From the NCBI GenBank assembly GCA_030648615.1, contig JAUSHJ010000040.1:1-64000 (forward strand): 64,000 nt of DNA, given 5' to 3'. Source of the stretch: Microcaldota archaeon (GTDB taxonomy: Archaea > Micrarchaeota > Micrarchaeia > Anstonellales > Bilamarchaeaceae). Positions 7,968-58,642 of the stretch are shown here, piece by piece. The position numbers and the translations under genes are program-made. How positions within the stretch are numbered: the first letter of the stretch is position 1; every line of letters starts with the position of its first letter. The notes beneath the pieces are model-generated. The model was not told the origin of the DNA and searched no databases. It saw only the letters and a program-made list of their open reading frames with translations.

Positions 7968-9152
7968 ATGCATTCGTTAAAACGCACAGAATCGAATAGA
8001 CTAGTTTTAGGTAGAGATATTACTGCGACTGTAGGGTCATTAAAACCGAGAGCATACGGTAAATTACTTACACAAGGTAAAATATCTGTACCAGAATCTT
8101 TTTATTTATTAGATCATGGTTTTACGGATTTTCAAACTAAGCCAGAACCTACTAAAACTAGATTATGTGAGCTTAGAAGAGTTGCTGGTAACATTTTTGA
8201 AGCAGAGGATCATGTGGCTAGAAGAGAAATAAGAAAGATGCTTACTAATGTGAAAGATGAAGGAATATTTTTGATACTCGGACATGGCGGGTCAATCCCA
8301 TGTGGTGCAGTATCAGCAAAGAAAAAATTACTTACTGATGGAATCGATGTGCATGAAAATATATCTCATATCTTAGATCACATACCGGTTGGGATACTTG
8401 GATTAAATTCACCAGAAGCAGAAGAACTAAATGCGAGGCATCAAGCAACTTTGCTTTTGGATGATTCTGAATTTAGTGCAATTATAAACGATAAACACAT
8501 AAGTGTAGTGACAGGTATATGTACCGATACCGGAATAAATTTCAACGTAATTAGAGAAAGTAAATCAGATGGTATACTAAATCCAGGTTCAGTATTGGTG
8601 GCATTAAGTGATCAATTAAAAAGAGGATTATCAACTGCCTTAGAAGAAGGAAAAAATTTACAAAAACATTTTGCACACGTTATGTTTATCTGGGATCCAC
8701 AAGAAATGGCACATGTGATGAATCCAAAAAGTGAACCTCTGGAATTGGTAGGGTTATGTTGTATCGATGGGAGATTACCTCCAAGAGTCCCAGGTCCAAG
8801 ATATATATTTAGAACCAGAGCAGGAGAAGCAGTTTCAGTTACTTGTTCTATCAATGGAAAAGTCGAATTTACAAAAGGTGAACTGGGGTCAGGTCTTTAT
8901 GGTCTAAACCAGGTTTACGGATTGGCACCAGGTAGAGATGGAAACTGGCATGTTCTTGCATTTGCTTCTAGTATGGAGCATGCTCGAATGATTAGAGAAG
9001 CTGTTTTAGAAATGCCAGAATTTGTTAGTTTGACAAAAGGTGGAGCCACAATCAGTGTTGGTTTTTTTGATGGCGAATTGTTGGTACTGAGAAATGGAGT
9101 TTCAGGTATAACTATAAGAAGACCGTATATTCCAGATACTCCAATCCTCTAG
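7968..9152 (+). CDS. Uncharacterized protein, beta-carbonic-anhydrase-like; paralog of 6650-7861
   Basis: TRLCELRRVAGNIFE ... LGHGGSIPCGAVSAKK ... NARHQATLLLDDSEFSAII ... VVTGICTD. Confidence 0.6.
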   Translation: MHSLKRTESNRLVLGRDITATVGSLKPRAYGKLLTQGKISVPESFYLLDHGFTDFQTKPEPTKTRLCELRRVAGNIFEAEDHVARREIRKMLTNVKDEGIFLILGHGGSIPCGAVSAKKKLLTDGIDVHENISHILDHIPVGILGLNSPEAEELNARHQATLLLDDSEFSAIINDKHISVVTGICTDTGINFNVIRESKSDGILNPGSVLVALSDQLKRGLSTALEEGKNLQKHFAHVMFIWDPQEMAHVMNPKSEPLELVGLCCIDGRLPPRVPGPRYIFRTRAGEAVSVTCSINGKVEFTKGELGSGLYGLNQVYGLAPGRDGNWHVLAFASSMEHARMIREAVLEMPEFVSLTKGGATISVGFFDGELLVLRNGVSGITIRRPYIPDTPIL

Positions 9153-11428
9153 TTTCTTCCTAAATTCTTTCCAACTATTTCTAAAATGTCTTTAGCTTCG
9201 TGTCCTACTTTTATTAGAGTCGTGTGACCACGCATTCCCTTGCTGCTCATTTTTGTTGTAATTAGTCCAAGCATTTCCAAATCATTTAAATATTCATGAT
9301 ACCAACGGACACTGCGAGCTCGTTTTTTTATTTTTTTACATACTAATTCATATTCTTCGTAGACTTCTCCTGAGAATAAAAAGCCTTCCATATTGTCAAG
9401 TCGTGCATATTTGCTGCCGTTCAACGAAAGATTTGCAATTGCATTTAGTAATATCTGATGGTTTTCTGGCAGTGTGCTAATTGTTTCAGCAGCAATATCG
9501 AAATCAACTTTTTTTCTTGCAGCTTCTACTTCATTATCAGTTATTTTTTTCTTTCCAGTCTGTTCAGCTATTTCTCCTGCCTTGAATAATAGCTTCAAAG
9601 CATAACGAGCATCCCCACTTTCCTGTGCAGTCATAGCTGCAGCAAGATTAACTGCACTGCTTTCCACTGTACCTTTGTTGAATCCCATCTCAGTTCTTCC
9701 ATCAAGAATTTTCCTTAACTGTTCACTCGAGTAAGGTGGGAAGACCATTTCAGTTTCGTAGAGACTGCTCTTACTTCTTGGATCTAAAGCATCTTTGAAT
9801 GATAATTTATTTGAAATTCCAACTATGCTAACTCCGCCTTTTTTTACCTCGTCATTTACTCTTGTTAGCGTGTAGATCAGTTCGTCCAAATCTTTTATCA
9901 TGTCTATTTCATCCAACACTATAACGAACTGATAATTATTTCCTATTATGTCAATAATTTTTTCATAGTAAAATGGCAATCCGAATCCTGCTTTTTCTAG
10001 TTCAGGTACAAATGGTTTAAGTAATTTCTGGAGAATTCTGTAGCGTGAATTATAAATTCTGCAATTAAGGTATACCATACTTGCGTTTTTTGCAGATTTA
10101 TTGAAATTATCCATAATGCTTTTTACTGAGCATGTTTTTCCCGTATTATGTGATATTATTCCATTTGCTATAAAATTATGGTTACCCGGAACAGTTAGAT
10201 CGTAAACAGTATCTTCGTAAGTTTCTTCTATTGCTATTATTTTGGAAGATAACAAATCTGATTTATAATTTCTTTTTAATCTATATCTATTTTCTAACAT
10301 CTCCTTTAGTTTTTCCTGCTTTTCTTTATGGTAAAAACCTATTTTATTGTAAAATTTAGTTAGATTATCTACTCGAGTTACATATAGTCTATAGCTATCG
10401 AAATACTTGCCATTGCATTTTGCTTTTTTATGTATTATTTTTGAGTTTATTCCAAATTGGTTTAGCAATAACATTATGTCCTGCAATAATCCTTTGGAAT
10501 TAGAATAATACTCTATCATAAACGTATTTTTTGATACCGTTCCATCTCCAGAAAAAAGCGCCTTTAGGAATTCTATTTGTGTTTGTTCATCACATTCAAA
10601 AATTATTTTTGGTACTCGAACAATATAACTTTTTTTACCCTTAGGGATACCTAAAAATGAAAGACAATCACATATCTTTTGGGATATTACTTCAACCTGC
10701 AAAGTTTTTCTACTTAACTGTTCTCTTCTGATAGTTGCTTTATAAGGGAATAAATCTGTTAAGTCTTTTTGAACCAATTGCAATAACTCCACAGTGTTAC
10801 TAGTATATCTTAGTCGTTGCCTATTAGAATTATACCAGTAACCTTTGCTATCCTTTGTCCGTTTTTTCTTCTGGTTTATGCTTCCATCGCTTATTACAAA
10901 ACCCAATAATCTTGCCAATCCAAAAGGAATCTGTTTTTTGCTCTCATTTGAAAAATTAAAACCAAGAAGGACATCATCATCTTTTTCTAGTTTGTCTGCT
11001 TTAGCCCATGTCAAATCTTTTAATAATAGCGGGTGATCTTTAGTTACTACCAATTCCAGACCGTTATCTAGGACTATTTTAAGTAATTTGTCATTATTTT
11101 TAAAAGTCAAGAATTTGAAGTTTTTCCATTCGTATTTTCTAGTTTTCAAATTGAAAGTTAGCACTTTTTCTGTTCCTACTATAGATTTTATTTCTTTATA
11201 TCCCTCGTTTGTCATCACCAGCGTTGAGCCTGAAACACAACCTGTTTTTCCATAGATGAAAAGATTTCTTGGTTTTCTGCCTCTTAGTGCAGAAGATACT
11301 ACCCCCATTATTTCTTCTATTTGTTGTTCGCGGAAAGGTAAAACATCTGGTACGTAGTGTGGTGAAAGTACGGAAACGTCTTTGAATATCGATTCTCTTG
11401 CAAGAATTTGCTCAAAACTAGGACTCAT
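9149..11428 (-). CDS. cdc6: Orc1/Cdc6 replication initiator with intein in the Walker A motif
   Basis: Exteins FIYGKTG / TGKTCSVKSIMDNF, VIVLDEIDMI, winged-helix C-term; intein with Cys1 and NGIISHN|T. Confidence 0.95.
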   Translation of the reverse strand: MSPSFEQILARESIFKDVSVLSPHYVPDVLPFREQQIEEIMGVVSSALRGRKPRNLFIYGKTGCVSGSTLVMTNEGYKEIKSIVGTEKVLTFNLKTRKYEWKNFKFLTFKNNDKLLKIVLDNGLELVVTKDHPLLLKDLTWAKADKLEKDDDVLLGFNFSNESKKQIPFGLARLLGFVISDGSINQKKKRTKDSKGYWYNSNRQRLRYTSNTVELLQLVQKDLTDLFPYKATIRREQLSRKTLQVEVISQKICDCLSFLGIPKGKKSYIVRVPKIIFECDEQTQIEFLKALFSGDGTVSKNTFMIEYYSNSKGLLQDIMLLLNQFGINSKIIHKKAKCNGKYFDSYRLYVTRVDNLTKFYNKIGFYHKEKQEKLKEMLENRYRLKRNYKSDLLSSKIIAIEETYEDTVYDLTVPGNHNFIANGIISHNTGKTCSVKSIMDNFNKSAKNASMVYLNCRIYNSRYRILQKLLKPFVPELEKAGFGLPFYYEKIIDIIGNNYQFVIVLDEIDMIKDLDELIYTLTRVNDEVKKGGVSIVGISNKLSFKDALDPRSKSSLYETEMVFPPYSSEQLRKILDGRTEMGFNKGTVESSAVNLAAAMTAQESGDARYALKLLFKAGEIAEQTGKKKITDNEVEAARKKVDFDIAAETISTLPENHQILLNAIANLSLNGSKYARLDNMEGFLFSGEVYEEYELVCKKIKKRARSVRWYHEYLNDLEMLGLITTKMSSKGMRGHTTLIKVGHEAKDILEIVGKNLGRN
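10145..11239 (-). mobile_element. LAGLIDADG-containing intein in Orc1/Cdc6 (365 aa)
   Basis: CVSGSTLVMTNEG ... LARLLGFVISDGSI ... FLKALFSGDGTV ... VYDLTVPGNHNFIANGIISHN; boundaries G|C and N|T. Confidence 0.93.
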
Positions 11429-19816: not shown

Positions 19817-19966
19817 GGGCTCGTAGCTCAGTACCGTTTGTATCAATTAATATACTCGGTTGAGTAACAGCAGAGCACCCGCCTTGCACGCGGGGGGCCG
19901 AGGGTGCGAGAGCTTTGTCCTGGCGGACAAAATTAGCCAGCAAAGCCGTCTATCCCTCCGAGTCCA
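19817..19966 (+). tRNA. tRNA-Ala(TGC) with D-loop and T-loop inserts
   Basis: GGGCTCG/CGAGTCC-A acceptor, GCTC...GAGC D stem, CCCGC-CTTGCAC-GCGGG anticodon arm, GAGGG...CCCTC T stem. Confidence 0.88.
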
Positions 19967-22026: not shown

Positions 22027-22134
22027 GACAAGCTTGTTGCTTAGGGCAACAAGATGTCCACGCAATTGTCGAGCGCGACAATGCGCACATTGTTCGAAAC
22101 ATCGAACAATTGTGTTGTTGCAATGCAACAATTG
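22027..22134. repeat. Tandem hairpin array D upstream of gcvH
   Basis: TTGTTGCTTAGGGCAACAA; CGCAATTGTCGAGCGCGACAATGCG; ATTGTTCGAAACATCGAACAAT; TTGTTGCAATGCAACAA. Confidence 0.9.
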
Positions 22135-22167
22135 GATGCTAGAAGTTTGAGATTCGCTGGTGTTTTT

Positions 22168-22548
22168 ATGGCATTGAAATTTACAAAAGATCATGAATGG
22201 ATAAGAACTGATGGAGATTTTGTAGTCGTAGGTATTTCTGATTATGCTCAAAAAGCACTCGGAGATTTAGTAAGTTTGGAATTGCCAAAAGTTGGCAGAG
22301 TTCTAAAACAACACGATAGTTTCTCGATTGTAGACTCGATGAAAGCAAGTAGTGATGTCTATGCACCAATAAGTGGTGAAGTAGTAGAAATAAATTCCCC
22401 TCTTAATAATAATCCTCAATGGATAAACGAATCTCCCTATGAAAAAGGATGGATGATAAAAATTAAGCCATCAAATCCTGCCGAGTTAGATGTACTAATG
22501 TCAGAAGAAGATTACAAAAAATACCTTTCTGGTTTGGGTAGTCACTAA
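22168..22548 (+). CDS. gcvH: Glycine cleavage system H protein
   Basis: MALKFTKDHEWIRTDGD ... SFSIVDSMKASSDVYAPISGEVVEIN; start placed at 22168 after GGTG, not the track start inside the array. Confidence 0.94.
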   Translation: MALKFTKDHEWIRTDGDFVVVGISDYAQKALGDLVSLELPKVGRVLKQHDSFSIVDSMKASSDVYAPISGEVVEINSPLNNNPQWINESPYEKGWMIKIKPSNPAELDVLMSEEDYKKYLSGLGSH

Positions 22549-30231: not shown

Positions 30232-30599
30232 GGGCCCGTAGCGCAGCTAAAGTTTTGAGTCTCGATTTCTGTGTTTCGAATTTTATTCATTCGAAACCAA
30301 AAGTAGAAAACTGAAAACTTCTGCTATGGACAGCGCGGCAGCCTTCTAAGAAATTTCTTTCGGTAATCTAAAGAAATTTCATAAAGAAAGAGGAAAGCTG
30401 TAGGTCATGGGTTCAAAACAGTCTTCAGTCTTGAAGTTTTGAGTCTAGTAAAATTATAATTACGAGACGTGAAACAGGACAACCATAAATCGACAAGCTT
30501 GTTGCTTCGAGTGATAAGATGCTCAGTGTTCGAACAATCGAACACTCGGGAACATCGATTTATCGGGAACTGGAGACAGTGTATTTCCCATCGGGCCCG
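30232..30599 (+). tRNA. tRNA-Arg(TCT) with D-loop, anticodon-loop and T-loop inserts (368-nt gene)
   Basis: GGGCCCG/CGGGCCC-G acceptor; GCGC...GCGC D stem; GCAGC-CTTCTAA...GCTGT anticodon arm; ATGGG-TTCAAA...TCCCAT T-arm. Confidence 0.85.
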
Positions 30600-30637: not shown

Positions 30638-30898
30638 ATGAAAGACAACATTGATCAGATTGCAGAAATGCTCAGTACGCTTACTGAAGATACAACTATT
30701 CCAAAAAACATAAGAAAAGCTCTTAGTGAAGCTAGGGATAGATTGAAGGGATCGGATGATGCAAATATCAAAGTAAGTGCCGCAGTATATCTGATTGAAT
30801 CTATAAGTGAAGATATCAATATGCCATCCCACGCGAGAACTCAAGTATGGGCAGTCATGAGTATGTTAGAATCTTTGAAAATAAATCCTATTCAGTAA
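30638..30898 (+). CDS. UPF0147 family protein
   Basis: LTEDTTIPKNIRKALSEARDRL...NIKVSAAVYLIESISEDINMPSHARTQVWAVMSMLE. Confidence 0.9.
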   Translation: MKDNIDQIAEMLSTLTEDTTIPKNIRKALSEARDRLKGSDDANIKVSAAVYLIESISEDINMPSHARTQVWAVMSMLESLKINPIQ

Positions 30899-32358: not shown

Positions 32359-32379
32359 TTATTATTTGATGTGATATCA

Positions 32380-32469
32380 ATGAATTGTCCCACGGGACAA
32401 ATATCCGTGTGCTTTTCAAGCACATCTGTTGAACAAGGTTCAACATCTCGAAGTGATTTCTCGATGAAT
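32380..32469. repeat. Tandem hairpin array H at the 5' end of polC flanked by a 6-bp direct repeat
   Basis: ATGAAT at 32380-32385 and 32464-32469 bracket TTGTCCCACGGGACAA, TGTGCTTTTCAAGCACA, GTTGAACAAGGTTCAAC, TCGAAGTGATTTCTCGA; 84-nt offset (28 codons). Confidence 0.85.
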
Positions 32470-35400
32470 ACGCAAAATTATTTTATAATTCTCAAAGCCG
32501 AACTGCAGAAAGCATATGCAATTTCCAGCGAAGCTCGTTCGAAAGGTTTTGATCCTGAAAAAGAAGTAGAAGTTAAAATAGCTCCAGACGTTGCAGCAAG
32601 AGTAGAAGGTATTGTGGGTCCAAAGGGAATTGCAGAAATTATACGTAGTATGGAGAAGCAAGGAATTTCCAGAGAAGACGTCGCATTTGAAATAGCAAAA
32701 AAATTAGCTTCCGGAGAAATAATCAAAGGAACAAAAGAGCAACTTGTAGAACAAGCAGTTAGAACTGGATTGGGGATACTTACAGAAGGTGTTCTTGTAG
32801 CTCCAACCGAAGGCATAGCTAAAGTTAGGGTAAAAAATAATCCTGATGGTACTGATTACGTTGCAGTTTATTATTCTGGTCCAATTAGAAGTGCTGGGGG
32901 AACTGCTGTAGCCTTAAGCGTTTTATTGGCAGATGTGGCTCGTAGGGTAGTTGGCATAGGAGATTATAGGGCAACTGATACTCAAATTGAAAGATATAAT
33001 GAAGAGGTAAATATTTACGAATCACGTGTGGCGCATTTGCAATATAAGCCTCCTGAAGAAGATGTTAAATGGGTTGTACAGAATTGCCCAGTTTGTATAG
33101 ATGGTGATCCTACAGAAGAAATAGAAGTGAGTACTTTTCGCAGTGTTCCTGGTGTTGAAACCAATAGAATAAGAGGGGGAGTACCACTTGTTATTTGTGA
33201 AGGGATAGCTCAGAAATGCGCAAAAGTTTTCAAGTATACTAAAAAACTTAACCTTGGCTGGACCTGGCTTGAAAAAATTATTAAAGTTAGTAAAAAAGAA
33301 GACAAGGTTGATATTAAGGTCGATTTTACCTATCTGGAAGGCATGGTAGCAGGAAGACCAGTATTTGCCTACCCATCTAGGATGGGTGGTTTTAGGCTCA
33401 GATATGGAAAAAGTAGGACGAATAGTCTAATGGCAAAAAATATTCACCCTGCAACAATGATTCTTCTTAGTAATTTTCTTGCCTATGGTACGCACATGAA
33501 AATTGAAAGACCAGGTAAAGGTTGTGTTATAGCTGGTCACGAATTGCTTGAACCTCCAGTGGTAAGATTGAAAAATGGCACAGTGACAAAAGTCCATACT
33601 ATCGAACACGCAGAGAATTTGGAAAATCAAGTATCAGAAGTACTTTTTCTTGGGGATATGTTAATTACTTATGGTGATTTCCTAAAATCTAACTATCCGT
33701 TAATTCCAAGTGCTTGGTGTGATGAATGGTTCGTAAAGGAGTTAGAATCAAAAGGAGTTCAGCAGATTAACCTTAGCACAGCCAAAGACGCATTCGAATT
33801 TTCTAGGAAATACGAAGTCCCTCTTTTACCTCTATTTACTTATAACTGGGGAGATTTGAAAAAAGAGGAGCTTGGAAAACTTGCAGATTGGCTTTGTAAG
33901 GTGAATTTACAGTTAAATGAAAACGGAGAGTTGCAAGAAGCTACTATTGATAATGCCCCCGAGAAAAGTTATCTTGAAAACTTACTGGTGGAACATAAAC
34001 TCGCAGATGGAAAAGTAATTCTAGAATCGGATAATGCTTACGCAGTTCTTAACACATTGGGGTTACTGAATCAGACTATTATTAGCATGGATAAATTTAC
34101 TGCTGCATTTTCAAAATATAATTCGGTCTTTGAAATATTAAAAGAGTGTAGTGGAATAGAAATCAAAAATAAATGTCCAAGTTATATTGGCGCAAGAATG
34201 GGTCGTCCAGAAAAAGCCAAGGAAAGAAAAATGGATGGTTCCCCACACGTTCTTTTTCCAACCGGTTCACAGAAAAACAGAAGTATTGCTAAGGTTTACA
34301 AGACTATAAAAGGCAAGGATATAGAAAAAACCATTAATTTGGAGCTTGCAAGGATGCGCTGCATGAATTGTAATTCACTTACATTTTATGCCAGATGTGA
34401 AACCTGTGGTGGAGCAGCAAGACTAGAACGTGCCTGTGTGAAATGTAGCAAGGCAACCGATAGCGAAATTCACTGTGATGAAAAGACAATTATCTACGAT
34501 CGGAGACCAATAAATATAATTTCCATTCTTGAAAATACCAAAAAGAAACTTGGTTTTATGCCAGAAGATGTTAAAGGTATCAAAGGTCTTTCAAATCCTG
34601 AGAGATTTCCAGAACGTGTAGAAAAAGGGTTTTTCCGTTCAAAACACGATGTCTATGTATTTCGAGATGGTACTTCCAGGTTCGATGCTACGGATATACC
34701 TATCACACACTTTATTCCAAAAGAAATTGGGGTAACCATTGAGAAACTACGTACTCTTGGCTATGACAAGGATTATTTTGGGAATGAGCTTACCAAAGAT
34801 GATCAATTGGTTACCATGTATCATCAAGATATAATACTTGCAGATAATGGTGCTGACTATTTCATGAAAGTAGCAAATTTCATGGATGACATGCTGGTAA
34901 ATCTTTATGGGTTACAATCATTTTATAATGTGAAAAAGAAAGATGATTTGATTGGGCATTTATGTGCTGCGCTTTCTCCTCACACTAGTGCAGCAGTGCT
35001 ATGCAGAATAATTGGTTTTACCAGAGCTAATGTTGGATATGGGCATCCTTACTTTCATACTGTAAAGAGAAGAAATTGTTTCCATCCACAAACTCGTATT
35101 TTAATCGAAAGCAGTAAAAATAAAAAATACAAGATCCTCGAAGTTACACTAGAGGATATTACCGAGAATCTACTAGGTGCTAAAAATGCACGCATAAAAG
35201 TTCTGGATAATGATACTATACGAGTAGAATCAGAAGAAGAATTATTTGTTCACAGTATAGATAAGAGTTCAAAACAGATAGTAAAAAGAAAAATAAAATG
35301 TTTCATGAAAACAAAAGCTCCAGAATACTGGATAAGAATAATGACCAAAAATGGAAGAGAGATGTCAGTTACACCGGATCACAATATTCTTTGTATAGAA

Positions 35401-36360
35401 AACGGCATCATGAAATCTATAGAAGCTTCTAATGTAGTTCTTGGGCAGAAAATACCAATACGAGATAAATCAAAGAAATCATTTATACTTGAACCTATTG
35501 TAAAGATAGAAAAATTCATCGAGGTTAAAAATGCTTATTGCTTGGACATAGAAACAGAAAGCGATGAATTAGTAGAGAAAAATGTTCTATTGAACAATGG
35601 TATATTTTGTATTCGATGTGATGGTGATGAAGACTGTGTTATGATGCTTTTGGATGCACTAATAAATTTCTCAAGACATTACCTGGATGAAAGACGTGGA
35701 GGAACAATGGACACTCCATTGGTACTTAGTCCAACCATAGATCCAAAAGAAGTAGATGATGAAGCACACTGCATAGAAATGGTGACCAGTTACCCATTAG
35801 AATTTTATCATGCAACTGAAAGATTTGCATTGCCAAGCGAAGTAAAAATTAAAACTGTAAAAGATGTGCTTGGAAAAGATGAACAGTTTGACATTCCGCT
35901 TACTCATTTAGGTGGCTATATAGATAAGGGAAATATACGTACTGCCTACGTTTTGTTGGATTCAATTCCAGATAAAATAAAAGTGCAATTTGAATTGCAC
36001 GAGCGACTTAGAGGTGTTGACCAGAAGGATGCTGCAGAACGGCTTATTCTTAGTCATTTCATCCCTGATCTCTATGGCAATCTTCGTTCTTTTTCAAGAC
36101 AAACTTTCCGCTGTGGTAATTGCAATGAAAGTTTCCGGAGAGTGCCCCTTGCAGGTAAATGTTATCGTTGCGGTGGAAATCTTCTTTTAACAATTAATAA
36201 AGGCGGAATTCAGAAATATTTAGAGATATCAAGGGGAATAATAGATCGGTATCAGCTTCCAGATTATTTGAAACAGCGGATTGATCTTCTTGACAAAGAG
36301 ATAAAAAGTATATTTGAGGATGATAAGATAAAACAATTAGGTTTGGCAGATTTTATATAA
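32380..36360 (+). CDS. polC: DNA polymerase D large subunit (DP2) with intein
   Basis: YYSGPIRSAGGTAVALSVLLADVARR, IGARMGRPEKAKERKM, KRRN|C...R|CDGDEDC, RGGTMDTPLVL. Confidence 0.95.
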   Translation: MNCPTGQISVCFSSTSVEQGSTSRSDFSMNTQNYFIILKAELQKAYAISSEARSKGFDPEKEVEVKIAPDVAARVEGIVGPKGIAEIIRSMEKQGISREDVAFEIAKKLASGEIIKGTKEQLVEQAVRTGLGILTEGVLVAPTEGIAKVRVKNNPDGTDYVAVYYSGPIRSAGGTAVALSVLLADVARRVVGIGDYRATDTQIERYNEEVNIYESRVAHLQYKPPEEDVKWVVQNCPVCIDGDPTEEIEVSTFRSVPGVETNRIRGGVPLVICEGIAQKCAKVFKYTKKLNLGWTWLEKIIKVSKKEDKVDIKVDFTYLEGMVAGRPVFAYPSRMGGFRLRYGKSRTNSLMAKNIHPATMILLSNFLAYGTHMKIERPGKGCVIAGHELLEPPVVRLKNGTVTKVHTIEHAENLENQVSEVLFLGDMLITYGDFLKSNYPLIPSAWCDEWFVKELESKGVQQINLSTAKDAFEFSRKYEVPLLPLFTYNWGDLKKEELGKLADWLCKVNLQLNENGELQEATIDNAPEKSYLENLLVEHKLADGKVILESDNAYAVLNTLGLLNQTIISMDKFTAAFSKYNSVFEILKECSGIEIKNKCPSYIGARMGRPEKAKERKMDGSPHVLFPTGSQKNRSIAKVYKTIKGKDIEKTINLELARMRCMNCNSLTFYARCETCGGAARLERACVKCSKATDSEIHCDEKTIIYDRRPINIISILENTKKKLGFMPEDVKGIKGLSNPERFPERVEKGFFRSKHDVYVFRDGTSRFDATDIPITHFIPKEIGVTIEKLRTLGYDKDYFGNELTKDDQLVTMYHQDIILADNGADYFMKVANFMDDMLVNLYGLQSFYNVKKKDDLIGHLCAALSPHTSAAVLCRIIGFTRANVGYGHPYFHTVKRRNCFHPQTRILIESSKNKKYKILEVTLEDITENLLGAKNARIKVLDNDTIRVESEEELFVHSIDKSSKQIVKRKIKCFMKTKAPEYWIRIMTKNGREMSVTPDHNILCIENGIMKSIEASNVVLGQKIPIRDKSKKSFILEPIVKIEKFIEVKNAYCLDIETESDELVEKNVLLNNGIFCIRCDGDEDCVMMLLDALINFSRHYLDERRGGTMDTPLVLSPTIDPKEVDDEAHCIEMVTSYPLEFYHATERFALPSEVKIKTVKDVLGKDEQFDIPLTHLGGYIDKGNIRTAYVLLDSIPDKIKVQFELHERLRGVDQKDAAERLILSHFIPDLYGNLRSFSRQTFRCGNCNESFRRVPLAGKCYRCGGNLLLTINKGGIQKYLEISRGIIDRYQLPDYLKQRIDLLDKEIKSIFEDDKIKQLGLADFI
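35077..35616 (+). mobile_element. Mini-intein (180 aa) in DP2, degenerate C-terminal splice motif
   Basis: N|CFHPQTRIL ... SVTPDHNIL ... AYCLDIETESDELVEKNVLLNNGIFCIR|C; no LAGLIDADG seen. Confidence 0.88.
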
Positions 36361-47649: not shown

Positions 47650-50600
47650 GTGAAAATTATGTCGGAAATAATCATAGAAAGACCAATTGAAAAAGACCTT
47701 CAAGAAAGCTATCTAGCTTACGCAATGAGTGTTATTATTGGCAGGGCAATTCCTGATGTAAGGGATGGCCTAAAACCAGTACACAGGAGAATTTTATTTT
47801 CGATGCATGATCTAGGGAATCACCATAATAAACCCTATAAAAAGAGTGCAAGAATAGTGGGTGACACTTTAGGAAAATATCACCCGCACGGTGATCAAGC
47901 TATATATGATTCACTTGTAAGAATGGCACAATCGTTTTCGTTACGATATATGCTAGTTGACGGTCAGGGAAATTTCGGATGTTTTACAAAAGATACTAAA
48001 GTTGCGTTGACAGATGGAAGAAGTTTGTCATTTGAAGAGTTAATTAAAGAATACAAAGAAGGAAAAAAGAATTATACATTTACAGTAGATCGAGATAATA
48101 AAATAAAAATAGCAGAGATAAAAAATCCAAGATTGACAAAAGAAAAAGCAGAATTAGTTAAAGTTATTCTTGATAATGGTGAAGAGATAAAATGTACTCC
48201 TAATCATAGATTTATGCTAAAAGACGGTACATATAAAGAAGCTAAGGATCTGGAATCTGGAAATTCTTTGATGCCATTATATTCTAGGTTATCAACAAAA
48301 GATGACGATCCAAATATCGTAGGATATAAAATGATTTATAACTCTTCTGAGGAAAAATGGGTATACGTCCATCATTTATCCGATGAATTTAATCTAGAAA
48401 ATGGCGTCTATGCAAGAAGCGCTGGCAGAATCAGGCATCATATAAATTTTAATAAACTTAACAACAATCCAGAAAATATCAAAAGAATGGACTGGAAAGA
48501 GCATTGGGTATTACATTACAACTTGACTTCTCAAAAACATATAAATGATCCAGAGTACAGGAGAAAACTGGCAGAAGGAAGAAAACAATTTTGGAGTGTT
48601 GAAGAAAATAAGAAACTCCTATCAAAGAGAACTTCAAAGAGAAATAAGGAGAACTGGGAAAAACCATTATATAGAGCTAAAATGTCTCAAAAACTTAGTG
48701 AAATAAATAAATTATATATTGAAAATCATCCAGAAAAAAGACAAGAATTTAGTGCTAGATTAACTAACACACTAAAAAGATTATGGCAGACAGAATCCTA
48801 TAAATTAATAATGAAGGCAAATATTACGAAGGGAAATAAGAATCATACAACTAATAAAACTGGAAAAGTAAAATTTCTTAGAATATGTAAAGAAATTAGT
48901 ACTAATAGGGAAATTATTTGTGAAAAAACTTACGAAAATATAAGAAATATTCTCTATCCTTACGGATCAGCTACAACCTGGACTACTGCTTTGAAAAAAT
49001 ATTTTAATAATGATCCTAATCTAGTGCTGCAGGAATTAAATAAAAATCATAAGGTTACCAAAGTAGAGAAATTAGGTTATTTGGAAGATGTTTATGATTT
49101 AACTATAGATATTACGCATAATTTTGCTTTAGCCTCAGGAATTTTCGTTCACAATTCAATAGACGGGGATAATCCAGCTCACATGCGTTATACAGAGGTG
49201 AGAATGGCTCGTACAGCAGAAGAAATGCTTGAAGATATAGATAAAGAAACAATCGATTTCCTTCCTAATTTTGATGGTACGTTGAAAGAGCCTACAGTAC
49301 TCCCAAGTAAATTACCAAATTTACTTATAAACGGTACTTCTGGTATTGCTGTAGGTATGGCAACTAATATGCCGCCTCACAATCTCAATGAAATCGTTGA
49401 TGCTACTGTTGCAGTGATTGATGGTGCAGATGAATTGGTAGTCTTGAATATTGTTAAAGCACCTGATTTTCCAACAGGCGGAGAAATTGTTGGTAAGGGC
49501 GGAGTGTACAATGCTTACAAAACCGGAAGAGGGACTATAAGATTGCGTGGAAAAGCAGAGATAGATGAGAAAAAACACATTATTCGTATTACAGAAATTC
49601 CATACCAGATTACGAAGACTTCAATAATAGAATCAATTGCAGAATCAGCCAAGGAAAAACGCATAGAAGGAATCCGTGGCATACATGATAGAAGCGATAA
49701 GGATGGGATCGAAGTTATCGTAGAACTTTCCAGAGATGCAAATCCAGAAGTCGTACTTAATCAATTATACGTTCACAGTCCGCTTGAAACTACTTTCGGT
49801 ATTATTAATCTTGCAATTGTAGGAAAGGAGCCTAAAGTATTGTCTTTATTTAGCCTCATAAATGAATTTATAGGATTTAGAAAAGAGGTTATAACAAAGA
49901 GAACTAAATTTGAATTGAGAATTGCAGCAGAAAGGGCACACATATTGGAAGGATTGAGAATTGCTCTTGACAATATTGATGCAGTCGTAGCTTTTTTACG
50001 TGCTTCTAAGGATGTAGAATCTGCCAGAACTGGCATGATGGCTAACTATTCATTGAGCGAGAAGCAGGCTAATGCAATTCTAGATATGAAATTGCAGAAG
50101 TTAATTTCTTTAGAAAGAAAGAAGATTGATGATGAGTATGCAGAACTGAAGAAGACCATAGACTGGCTAAAGGAAATATTAGCAGATGTTGGCAAAGTAA
50201 TGAAAATCATCAAAGATGAACTGCTTGAAATAAAACAAAAATACGGAGATGAAAGAAGAACTAAAATTCTTGATATCGATGGCGACATAGTCACAGAAGA
50301 TCTTATACCTAATGATGATGTAGTTGTCGTAATCACCCAGCGTGGGTACATTAAACGAATGCTGCTTAACGAATACAAATCTCAGCACAGAGGGGGCAAA
50401 GGAGTAATCGGTGCAGAAACAAAGGAAGAAGACTTTGTGCGAGATCTCATAGTTACAAAGAACAAGAATTACATGCTATTCTTTACAGACAAAGGAAGAG
50501 TTTTCTGGCTTAAAGCATACCAGATACCAGAATCAGGAAGATATGCAACCGGAAAAACAATTGTTAGCATGCTGGATCTCAAGGAGGAAAAAGTAAATTC

Positions 50601-51360
50601 CTGGATAACTGTTGATCAGTTCAACGAAAATGAGTTTTTAGTGATGGCTACCAAGAACGGAATATTAAAGCGAACTTCTCTTATGAATTTTAGTAATCCT
50701 AGAAAGAACGGTGTCATTGCAATTACTCTGAAGGAGAACGATCAGCTTGTCGATGTGATAAAAAGTAATGGTAAGCAGGAAATGATACTTGCTACTCGTT
50801 TCGGTCAGGCTGTAAGATTTGATGAGAATGATGCAAGAGAACTTGGCAGAACAGGACAGGGTGTCATAGGTATTAGGTTGAAAGATGAAAATGACGCGGT
50901 CGTAGGAATTGCAGTATGCAATAAGCCCTCATTATTCACTATCACTGAAAATGGTTATGGGAAGAGGACTCCTATAGAAGAATATCGTTTACAAGCAAGA
51001 GGCGGTTCTGGAGTAATAAATATGAAGACCGAGGGAAGAAACGGCAGCGTCATAGGTATAGCTGGGGTAGAAGAGAGTGATGAAATAATTGTCATTACCA
51101 CTGGTGGTCAAGTTATAAGGACTTTCATAAAAGATATTTCAGTTATTGGTAGGAACACTCAGGGTGTCAGGATTATTCGTTTGGACGAAACCGCGAAAGA
51201 GAGGGTTGCGAATTTTGCAGTTGTGCATGCAGGAGCGGTAGTAGCTGTAGCGGATGGAATTAATGATGTAGAAGCTGGGGTCAATAAGATAGAGGATATA
51301 AAAAGCGAAACAGAAAATGAAAATAAAGAAGAAAATTTACCTAAAGAAGAAGGAAAATAA
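47650..51360 (+). CDS. gyrA: DNA gyrase subunit A with intein
   Basis: YAMSVIIGRAIPDVRDGLKPVHRRILFSM, VDGQGNFG|C...HN|SIDGDNPAHMRYTEVRM, C-terminal beta-pinwheel GRTGQGVIGIRL. Confidence 0.97.
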   Translation: MKIMSEIIIERPIEKDLQESYLAYAMSVIIGRAIPDVRDGLKPVHRRILFSMHDLGNHHNKPYKKSARIVGDTLGKYHPHGDQAIYDSLVRMAQSFSLRYMLVDGQGNFGCFTKDTKVALTDGRSLSFEELIKEYKEGKKNYTFTVDRDNKIKIAEIKNPRLTKEKAELVKVILDNGEEIKCTPNHRFMLKDGTYKEAKDLESGNSLMPLYSRLSTKDDDPNIVGYKMIYNSSEEKWVYVHHLSDEFNLENGVYARSAGRIRHHINFNKLNNNPENIKRMDWKEHWVLHYNLTSQKHINDPEYRRKLAEGRKQFWSVEENKKLLSKRTSKRNKENWEKPLYRAKMSQKLSEINKLYIENHPEKRQEFSARLTNTLKRLWQTESYKLIMKANITKGNKNHTTNKTGKVKFLRICKEISTNREIICEKTYENIRNILYPYGSATTWTTALKKYFNNDPNLVLQELNKNHKVTKVEKLGYLEDVYDLTIDITHNFALASGIFVHNSIDGDNPAHMRYTEVRMARTAEEMLEDIDKETIDFLPNFDGTLKEPTVLPSKLPNLLINGTSGIAVGMATNMPPHNLNEIVDATVAVIDGADELVVLNIVKAPDFPTGGEIVGKGGVYNAYKTGRGTIRLRGKAEIDEKKHIIRITEIPYQITKTSIIESIAESAKEKRIEGIRGIHDRSDKDGIEVIVELSRDANPEVVLNQLYVHSPLETTFGIINLAIVGKEPKVLSLFSLINEFIGFRKEVITKRTKFELRIAAERAHILEGLRIALDNIDAVVAFLRASKDVESARTGMMANYSLSEKQANAILDMKLQKLISLERKKIDDEYAELKKTIDWLKEILADVGKVMKIIKDELLEIKQKYGDERRTKILDIDGDIVTEDLIPNDDVVVVITQRGYIKRMLLNEYKSQHRGGKGVIGAETKEEDFVRDLIVTKNKNYMLFFTDKGRVFWLKAYQIPESGRYATGKTIVSMLDLKEEKVNSWITVDQFNENEFLVMATKNGILKRTSLMNFSNPRKNGVIAITLKENDQLVDVIKSNGKQEMILATRFGQAVRFDENDARELGRTGQGVIGIRLKDENDAVVGIAVCNKPSLFTITENGYGKRTPIEEYRLQARGGSGVINMKTEGRNGSVIGIAGVEESDEIIVITTGGQVIRTFIKDISVIGRNTQGVRIIRLDETAKERVANFAVVHAGAVVAVADGINDVEAGVNKIEDIKSETENENKEENLPKEEGK
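47980..49155 (+). mobile_element. HNH-containing intein in GyrA (392 aa)
   Basis: CFTKDTKVALTDG ... RHHINFNKLNNNPENIKRMDWKEHWVLHY ... VYDLTIDITHNFALASGIFVHN|S. Confidence 0.9.
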
Positions 51361-51752: not shown

Positions 51753-51828
51753 AAATTCACCTTAATAATATTAATATTTAAATCTATATATTTCACCAGT
51801 TTATGTCTGGTGGTTTTTGACATATTTT

Positions 51829-52090
51829 CATGTGTCAATTCGGCACGGAAACTCATGGTTTGACGCGTAACGCCGCGTCAAATATTGACACGATACGTCG
51901 TGTCAATGGATTGTCAATACTTTGTTGACAAATAGTGTCACGAATTGTCGTGACACTGGTTTTAACCTTGGGAGGAAGTGCCGAATTTACACAACTTTGC
52001 CCTCCCAATTGTTCGACGCTTCGAACAATGGGCATATTGTTGCTTATAGCAACAATCTTGTAGGCTGTGGTGGCCGAATGGGCAAATCAT
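51829..52090 (+). repeat. Two-stem structured element, copy 1, expanded by hairpin insertions
   Basis: CATGTGTCAATTCGGCACGGAAACTCATGGTTT...TTTTAACCTTGGGAGGAAGTGCCGAATTTACACAACTTTGCCC...GGCTGTGGTGGCCGAATGGGCAAATCAT. Confidence 0.85.
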
Positions 52091-58485: not shown

Positions 58486-58513
58486 CTAAGGTAATAAAAT
58501 GTTGTTTAAAACT

Positions 58514-58642
58514 CATGTGTCAATTCGGCATGGAAACTCATGGTTTTAACTTTGGGAGGAAGTGCCGAATTTACACAACTTTGCCCTTCGGCCCTAATGA
58601 AACCACAGCCTTTAGGCTGTGGTGGCCGAATGGGCAAATCAT
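58514..58642 (+). repeat. Two-stem structured element, copy 2, compact
   Basis: TTCGGCATGGAAACTCATGGTTTTAACTTTGGGAGGAAGTGCCGAA then TTTGCCCTTCGGCC...ACCACAGCCTTTAGGCTGTGGTGGCCGAATGGGCAAA. Confidence 0.85.

Follow-up and report, generated by a model that had tools for sequence, protein, structure and literature searches.

The window analysed here, a stretch of 64,000 nucleotides from a Micrarchaeota genome, contains at positions 30232-30599 of its forward strand a tRNA-Arg(UCU) gene of 368 nt composed of four exons and three introns, in which the exons (17, 22, 22, and 14 nt) account for only 75 of the 368 nt (20%). A conserved downstream gene, which we take to be of the UPF0147 type, serves as a synteny anchor. 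In window positions, the locus reads:

30232-30248 (+): exon 1, with the acceptor 5' strand, the D-stem 5' strand, and D-loop nucleotides 1-4
30249-30326 (+): D-loop intron 17/17a, 78 nt, with central helix GCAG/CUGC and bulges CU^A and UA^U
30327-30348 (+): exon 2, with the remainder of the D arm, the anticodon-stem 5' strand, and the anticodon UCU up to position 37
30349-30395 (+): canonical anticodon-loop intron 37/38, 47 nt, with central helix CUUC/GAGG and a relaxed inner helix
30396-30417 (+): exon 3, with position 38, the anticodon-stem 3' strand, the variable loop, the T-stem 5' strand, and UUCAAA
30418-30585 (+): T-loop intron 59/60, 168 nt, with central helix UUCA/UGUA (one U.U mismatch) and bulges AA^A and UU^U
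30586-30599 (+): exon 4, with T60, the T-stem 3' strand, the acceptor 3' strand, and the discriminator G
30638-30895 (+): UPF0147-type gene

Once the inserts are removed in silico, the joined exons, GGGCCCG-TA-GCGC-AGCUUGGACA-GCGC-G-GCAGC-CUUCUAA-GCUGU-AGGUC-AUGGG-UUCAAAU-CCCAU-CGGGCCC-G (75 nt, anticodon UCU), yield a cloverleaf with acceptor, D, anticodon, and T stems. A preliminary description of this DNA had located the gene and its anticodon correctly, had proposed three inserts of ~75-80, ~46, and ~165 nt, close to the sizes parsed here, and had estimated the mature tRNA at ~20% of the gene; these claims are borne out, and every sequence that it quoted is present in the window. ARAGORN and an Rfam search (4227 families, gathering score) were both blank in the window, with no family matched; with inserts this large, it was to be expected that they would miss the gene. 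Users of standard tRNA finders should be aware that, in this phylum, tRNA genes with inserts may go undetected. The complete 368-nt gene folds far better than shuffled sequences (z = -6.4, 0/100), and the introns folded alone have z = -4.1 (D), -2.4 (anticodon), and -4.8 (T) relative to shuffles. The minimum-energy structure of the free spliced 75-mer is not a cloverleaf, with the acceptor and T arms forming and the middle not, so that its cloverleaf rests on comparative evidence and not on energy.

For this comparison, we collected orthologues in related genomes by a descriptor search near the UPF0147-type gene and obtained 39 tRNA-Arg(UCU/CCU) genes, counted with that of the window. In-silico splicing brings 39/39 of them to 75 nt, with a mean identity of 89% to the window tRNA and 76-100% identity of the exons across genera. 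Six of the 39 are intronless and exactly 75 nt long; the others carry one to three inserts of 19-196 nt, located exclusively in the D, anticodon, or T loop, the longest gene reaching 432 nt (locus L052). Such constant exons, as opposed to variable inserts, are the strongest comparative evidence for insert removal, and we infer that the three introns of tRNA-Arg(UCU) are probably spliced out. Since each intron may be present, absent, or differently sized at the same site, its gain, loss, and enlargement become testable.

The splice junctions were tested against a BHB layout in which exon and intron form a 4-bp central helix and the 3-nt bulges are cut after their second base. BHB-type junctions, on which the preliminary description had made its proposal depend, occur at all three sites: in the window gene, the central helix has 4/4 pairs at the D-loop site, 4/4 at the anticodon site, and 3/4 at the T-loop site, and the intron-side helix (h') beyond the 5' bulge has 6/6, 2/6, and 5/6 pairs, respectively, the anticodon site being relaxed. 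The D-loop site is devoid of a good exon-side helix. As these junctions are only moderately better than those of shuffled introns (p = 0.010, 0.075, and 0.040), their support comes from the comparative set, where a central helix with at least three of four pairs is found in 12/12 D, 25/26 anticodon, and 16/16 T introns (53/54 for the orthologue set). An independent check comes from contig C36, where the 3' end of an Arg(UCG) paralogue, free of any insert, agrees with the predicted spliced product at 25/25 nt spanning the T-loop junction.

The host genome (1.65 Mb in 76 contigs, completeness 89.75%) encodes enzymes that may process such a transcript. An ORF of 405 aa (L142:1207-2424, reverse strand) can be aligned over its full length to 4fz2, the three-unit endonuclease of ARMAN-2 (E = 6e-136, residues 18-405), and keeps Y160, K161, Y236, H251, R275, K282, and W384 (residues named in PMC12397907 and mapped by eye from the alignment), which represent the catalytic Tyr/His/Lys together with the Tyr-Lys loop, Arg, and Trp of ARMAN-2. 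Judged by this alignment, it is an epsilon2 three-unit endonuclease of the ARMAN-2 type. The ligase RtcB is also encoded, its match (G000:C63:23869-25214, reverse strand) being split over two ORFs with the N-terminal 24 positions separate, possibly by a frameshift. Besides the three-unit enzyme, there is a second ORF with a tRNA_int_endo domain (163 aa, L143:1465-1956, reverse strand, in G000:C50), in which the catalytic His seems by eye to be absent and which is perhaps a structural or decayed paralogue.

The T-loop intron contains a hairpin element that recurs throughout the genome. Aligned copies read GACAAG - hairpin 1 - ATG - CCC-hairpin 2-GGG - A; the element is branched, ~60-80 nt long, and made of two hairpins, to which longer arrays add further ones. 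The preliminary description had already seen an intergenic-type module in this insert, and the 16-nt match that it reported (GACAAGCTTGTTGCTT) is exact at 22027 and 30492; a genome-wide search with GACAAGCTTGTTGC and at most 2 mismatches found 54 matches, whereas the reversed control had 11. From 14 copies, that of the T-loop intron among them, we built a covariance model, which yielded 137 genome matches with E ≤ 1, a number that includes partial and opposite-strand duplicates and was condensed to ~70 places. Copies in the window include:

30485-30563 (+): hairpin element in the T-loop intron, with a 9-bp outer stem, hairpin 1, and hairpin 2 (model match 30492-30557, 70.6 bits)
22027-22121 (+): intergenic copy, in the array upstream of gcvH
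51997-52062 (-): element copy, 78.4 bits
17616-17678 (-): element copy, 43.2 bits

The gcvH ORF as listed (window 22054-22166) begins within the hairpin array, its true start being probably near 22168 (ATGGCATTGAAATTTACA). Elements lie mostly in intergenic DNA, in both orientations relative to the adjoining genes and in no single gene context, and ~66 of the ~70 copies are outside tRNA genes and devoid of tRNA-intron ends. The host genome is one of 14, out of 37 in the taxonomic family, that carry the element family. In an alignment of 57 distinct copies, pairing is found in 98.7% of stem cells, two-sided changes occur at 17 of the 18 stem pairs (177 cells, versus 8 one-sided cells), and the covariation score is 0.488, compared with 0.135 for shuffles and at most 0.083 for slid controls, figures that lean towards structure because the alignment was fitted to the model structure and holds some overlapping opposite-strand matches. 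Flank complementarity of the copies overall beats shuffled pairing (0/1000). Insertion always into the apex of an existing hairpin was rejected as a general rule, a helix of at least 5 bp being found in only 12 of 40 copies (~5 expected).

Four elements reside in three tRNA genes of the host genome. Apart from tRNA-Arg(UCU), these are a tRNA-Leu(GAG) gene of 210 nt (L128, forward from ~1414, in G000:C54), with the element antisense in its D-arm intron, and a probable tRNA-Ser(CGA) gene of 454 nt (L003, G000:C32:15085-15538, reverse strand), with elements in both its D- and T-loop inserts and an anticodon-arm region that gives no clean parse. In another genus (genome G013), the T-loop intron of a tRNA-Glu gene (~150 nt) also holds the element. 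We do not claim preferential targeting of tRNA introns, since 4 of ~70 copies, set against the extent of the non-coding DNA, amount to a modest enrichment at best. The D and T introns of tRNA-Arg(UCU) also have in common AAGTTTTGAGTCT, part of a second intergenic motif (23 matches versus 4 in the control), so that, with this motif and the element both shared with intergenic DNA, intron sequence is partly the same material. A degenerate intergenic motif, GTYTTGAGTCT / AGACTCAARAC, is found genome-wide (for instance at C8:6515, C46:11175, and C65:19994), about sixfold over its reversed control, and occurs in tRNA introns too. Our tRNA finder was home-made, and its census of 23 genes and 30 introns comes from selected stretches only and is biased. 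A probable tRNA-Ala(UGC) gene, read by eye at window 19817-19966 (+) with D- and T-loop inserts and the acceptor GGGCTCG/CGAGTCC-A, was not picked up by the descriptor search.

What kind of sequence the element is can be approached from its stems. G.U intermediates are few outside the T-loop intron copy, which points to upkeep of the palindrome at the DNA level, and these clean Watson-Crick palindromes, occurring in both orientations, resemble interspersed repeats of the DNA and not a conserved RNA gene. The very strong covariation could instead reflect a functional RNA module under selection in the transcripts, the pre-tRNA among them, such as a processing signal, a protein-binding RNA, or a folding aid, and the T-loop intron copy, which is free of mismatches and accounts for 4 of the 10 G.U pairs seen in all copies, weakly suggests that pairing is kept in the transcript. 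We nonetheless regard such a module as unlikely, considering the scarcity of G.U pairs elsewhere, the two orientations, the antisense copy in the tRNA-Leu(GAG) intron, the diversity of gene contexts, and the patchy distribution among genomes. A conserved cis-acting RNA, for example a gcvH regulator, was rejected as the main reading on account of the two orientations and the unrelated neighbour genes. It is also very improbable that the tRNA intron was the source and the intergenic copies derive from excised introns: shared sequence, which fits either direction, is all that speaks for it, whereas hairpin 1 is more degraded in the intronic copy than in any other, the intergenic ones hold the intact form, and nearly all copies are free of tRNA genes and of their intron ends.

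No second Arg(UCU) gene, the intact copy that the preliminary description had named as a counter-argument, was found in the assembly, although one could be missed because the assembly is only ~90% complete. This incompleteness, and the fact that the gene is mostly insert, would allow it to be a decaying pseudogene whose function is ensured by another Arg(UCU) gene outside the assembled contigs, a scenario that we consider barely credible given four intact stems, exons conserved across genera, junction pairing conserved at the same sites, three-insert orthologues in other genomes as well, and AGA making up 50% of Arg codons (window ORFs of at least 200 aa) with no second gene detected to read them.

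We therefore favour, with a probability of roughly 0.9, a functional and probably sole tRNA-Arg(UCU) gene with three BHB-type introns, of which that of the T loop has been enlarged by insertion of a repeat. At each site of the presumed transcript, the central helix, flanked by a 3-nt bulge on either side, would arise from pairing of the final bases of the exon with the 3' terminus of the intron; the ARMAN-2-type three-unit endonuclease would cleave within the bulges of the pre-tRNA, and RtcB would join the four exons into the 75-nt tRNA. The larger T-loop intron would result from the insertion of one copy of the interspersed, self-folding two-hairpin repeat, the intron being most likely the recipient of this repeat and not its source. 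Being a palindrome with a closing stem of its own, the element would fold on itself and leave the splice sites close to each other, so that introns can tolerate it. More tentatively, small hairpin repeats spreading at the DNA level might continually seed and enlarge tRNA introns in this Micrarchaeota family, where a broad-specificity endonuclease, for which a minimal junction suffices, would make the self-folding repeat ends tolerable. If so, tRNA intron gain and growth in these archaea would be driven by an identifiable mobile repeat.

The origin and growth of archaeal tRNA introns are an open question for which mobile elements have been proposed as agents, and here a modelled repeat family is found in intergenic DNA and in tRNA introns alike. 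Archaeal tRNAs with up to three introns are known mostly from Thermoproteales (PMC8450103, PMC4390854), including the tRNA-Glu(UUC) of Pyrobaculum calidifontis with three (PMC4390854, PMC8450103), and related intron sequences in different tRNAs have been ascribed to intron transposition (Fujishima 2010, as cited in PMC4033280). Thermoproteales resemble our case in that one tRNA may hold as many as three BHB introns, placed at canonical as well as non-canonical positions, and in that many of their tRNA genes contain introns; they belong to another phylum with another endonuclease type, whereas the Micrarchaeota gene has a 168-nt intron with a repeat copy that also occupies intergenic regions. 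Closer are ARMAN-1 and ARMAN-2, with multi-intron tRNAs and an epsilon2 three-unit endonuclease (Fujishima 2011 and Hirata 2012, as cited in PMC4033280; PMC12397907), which share the phylum, a full-length enzyme orthologue with the same key residues, non-canonical sites, and relaxed motifs. To these, our data add the repeat within introns and a series of orthologues in which each intron may be present or missing and varies in size. In Caldiarchaeum, a mobile-element model of tRNA disruption was put forward for tRNA-Thr, where mobile DNA was likewise proposed as the agent of intron gain (PMC3293823). That case involves a 1.8-kb recombinase-coding insertion between the tRNA gene and its fragment, in contrast with the non-coding ~60-80 nt hairpin repeat found here inside a predicted spliceable intron.

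Like the bacterial REP/REPIN sequences (PMC3733652, PMC3116915), the element is a short, high-copy, mostly extragenic palindrome found in both orientations with well-paired stems, but it is branched, with two to multiple hairpins and sequence-diverse stems. We rejected a RAYT/REP explanation, since no REP-associated tyrosine transposase is linked to it and the only Y1 transposase is of the IS200 type (16.5 bits against REP_Tyr_transpos, cut-off 80), with flanking hairpins unlike the element. We found no published report of an interspersed hairpin-repeat family common to intergenic regions and tRNA introns in the part of the literature covered; the presence of such a family inside tRNA introns is apparently the new part, multi-intron tRNAs and a broad-specificity endonuclease being already known.

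Other insertions and repeats were noticed in the window. Two composite intergenic repeats, at 51828-52090 and 58513-58642, are 97-100% identical, and contigs C41, C3, C32, and C33 hold sequence resembling them (AGGCTGTGGTTTCATT..GGCC). Three intein-like insertions were recognized by eye, in an Orc1/Cdc6-like ORF (9149-11428, reverse strand, CVSGSTLV..HN), a DNA polymerase D large-subunit-like ORF (32371-36360, forward strand, CFHPQTRIL..LNN), and a DNA gyrase A-like ORF (47650-51360, forward strand, CFTKDTKVAL..HN).
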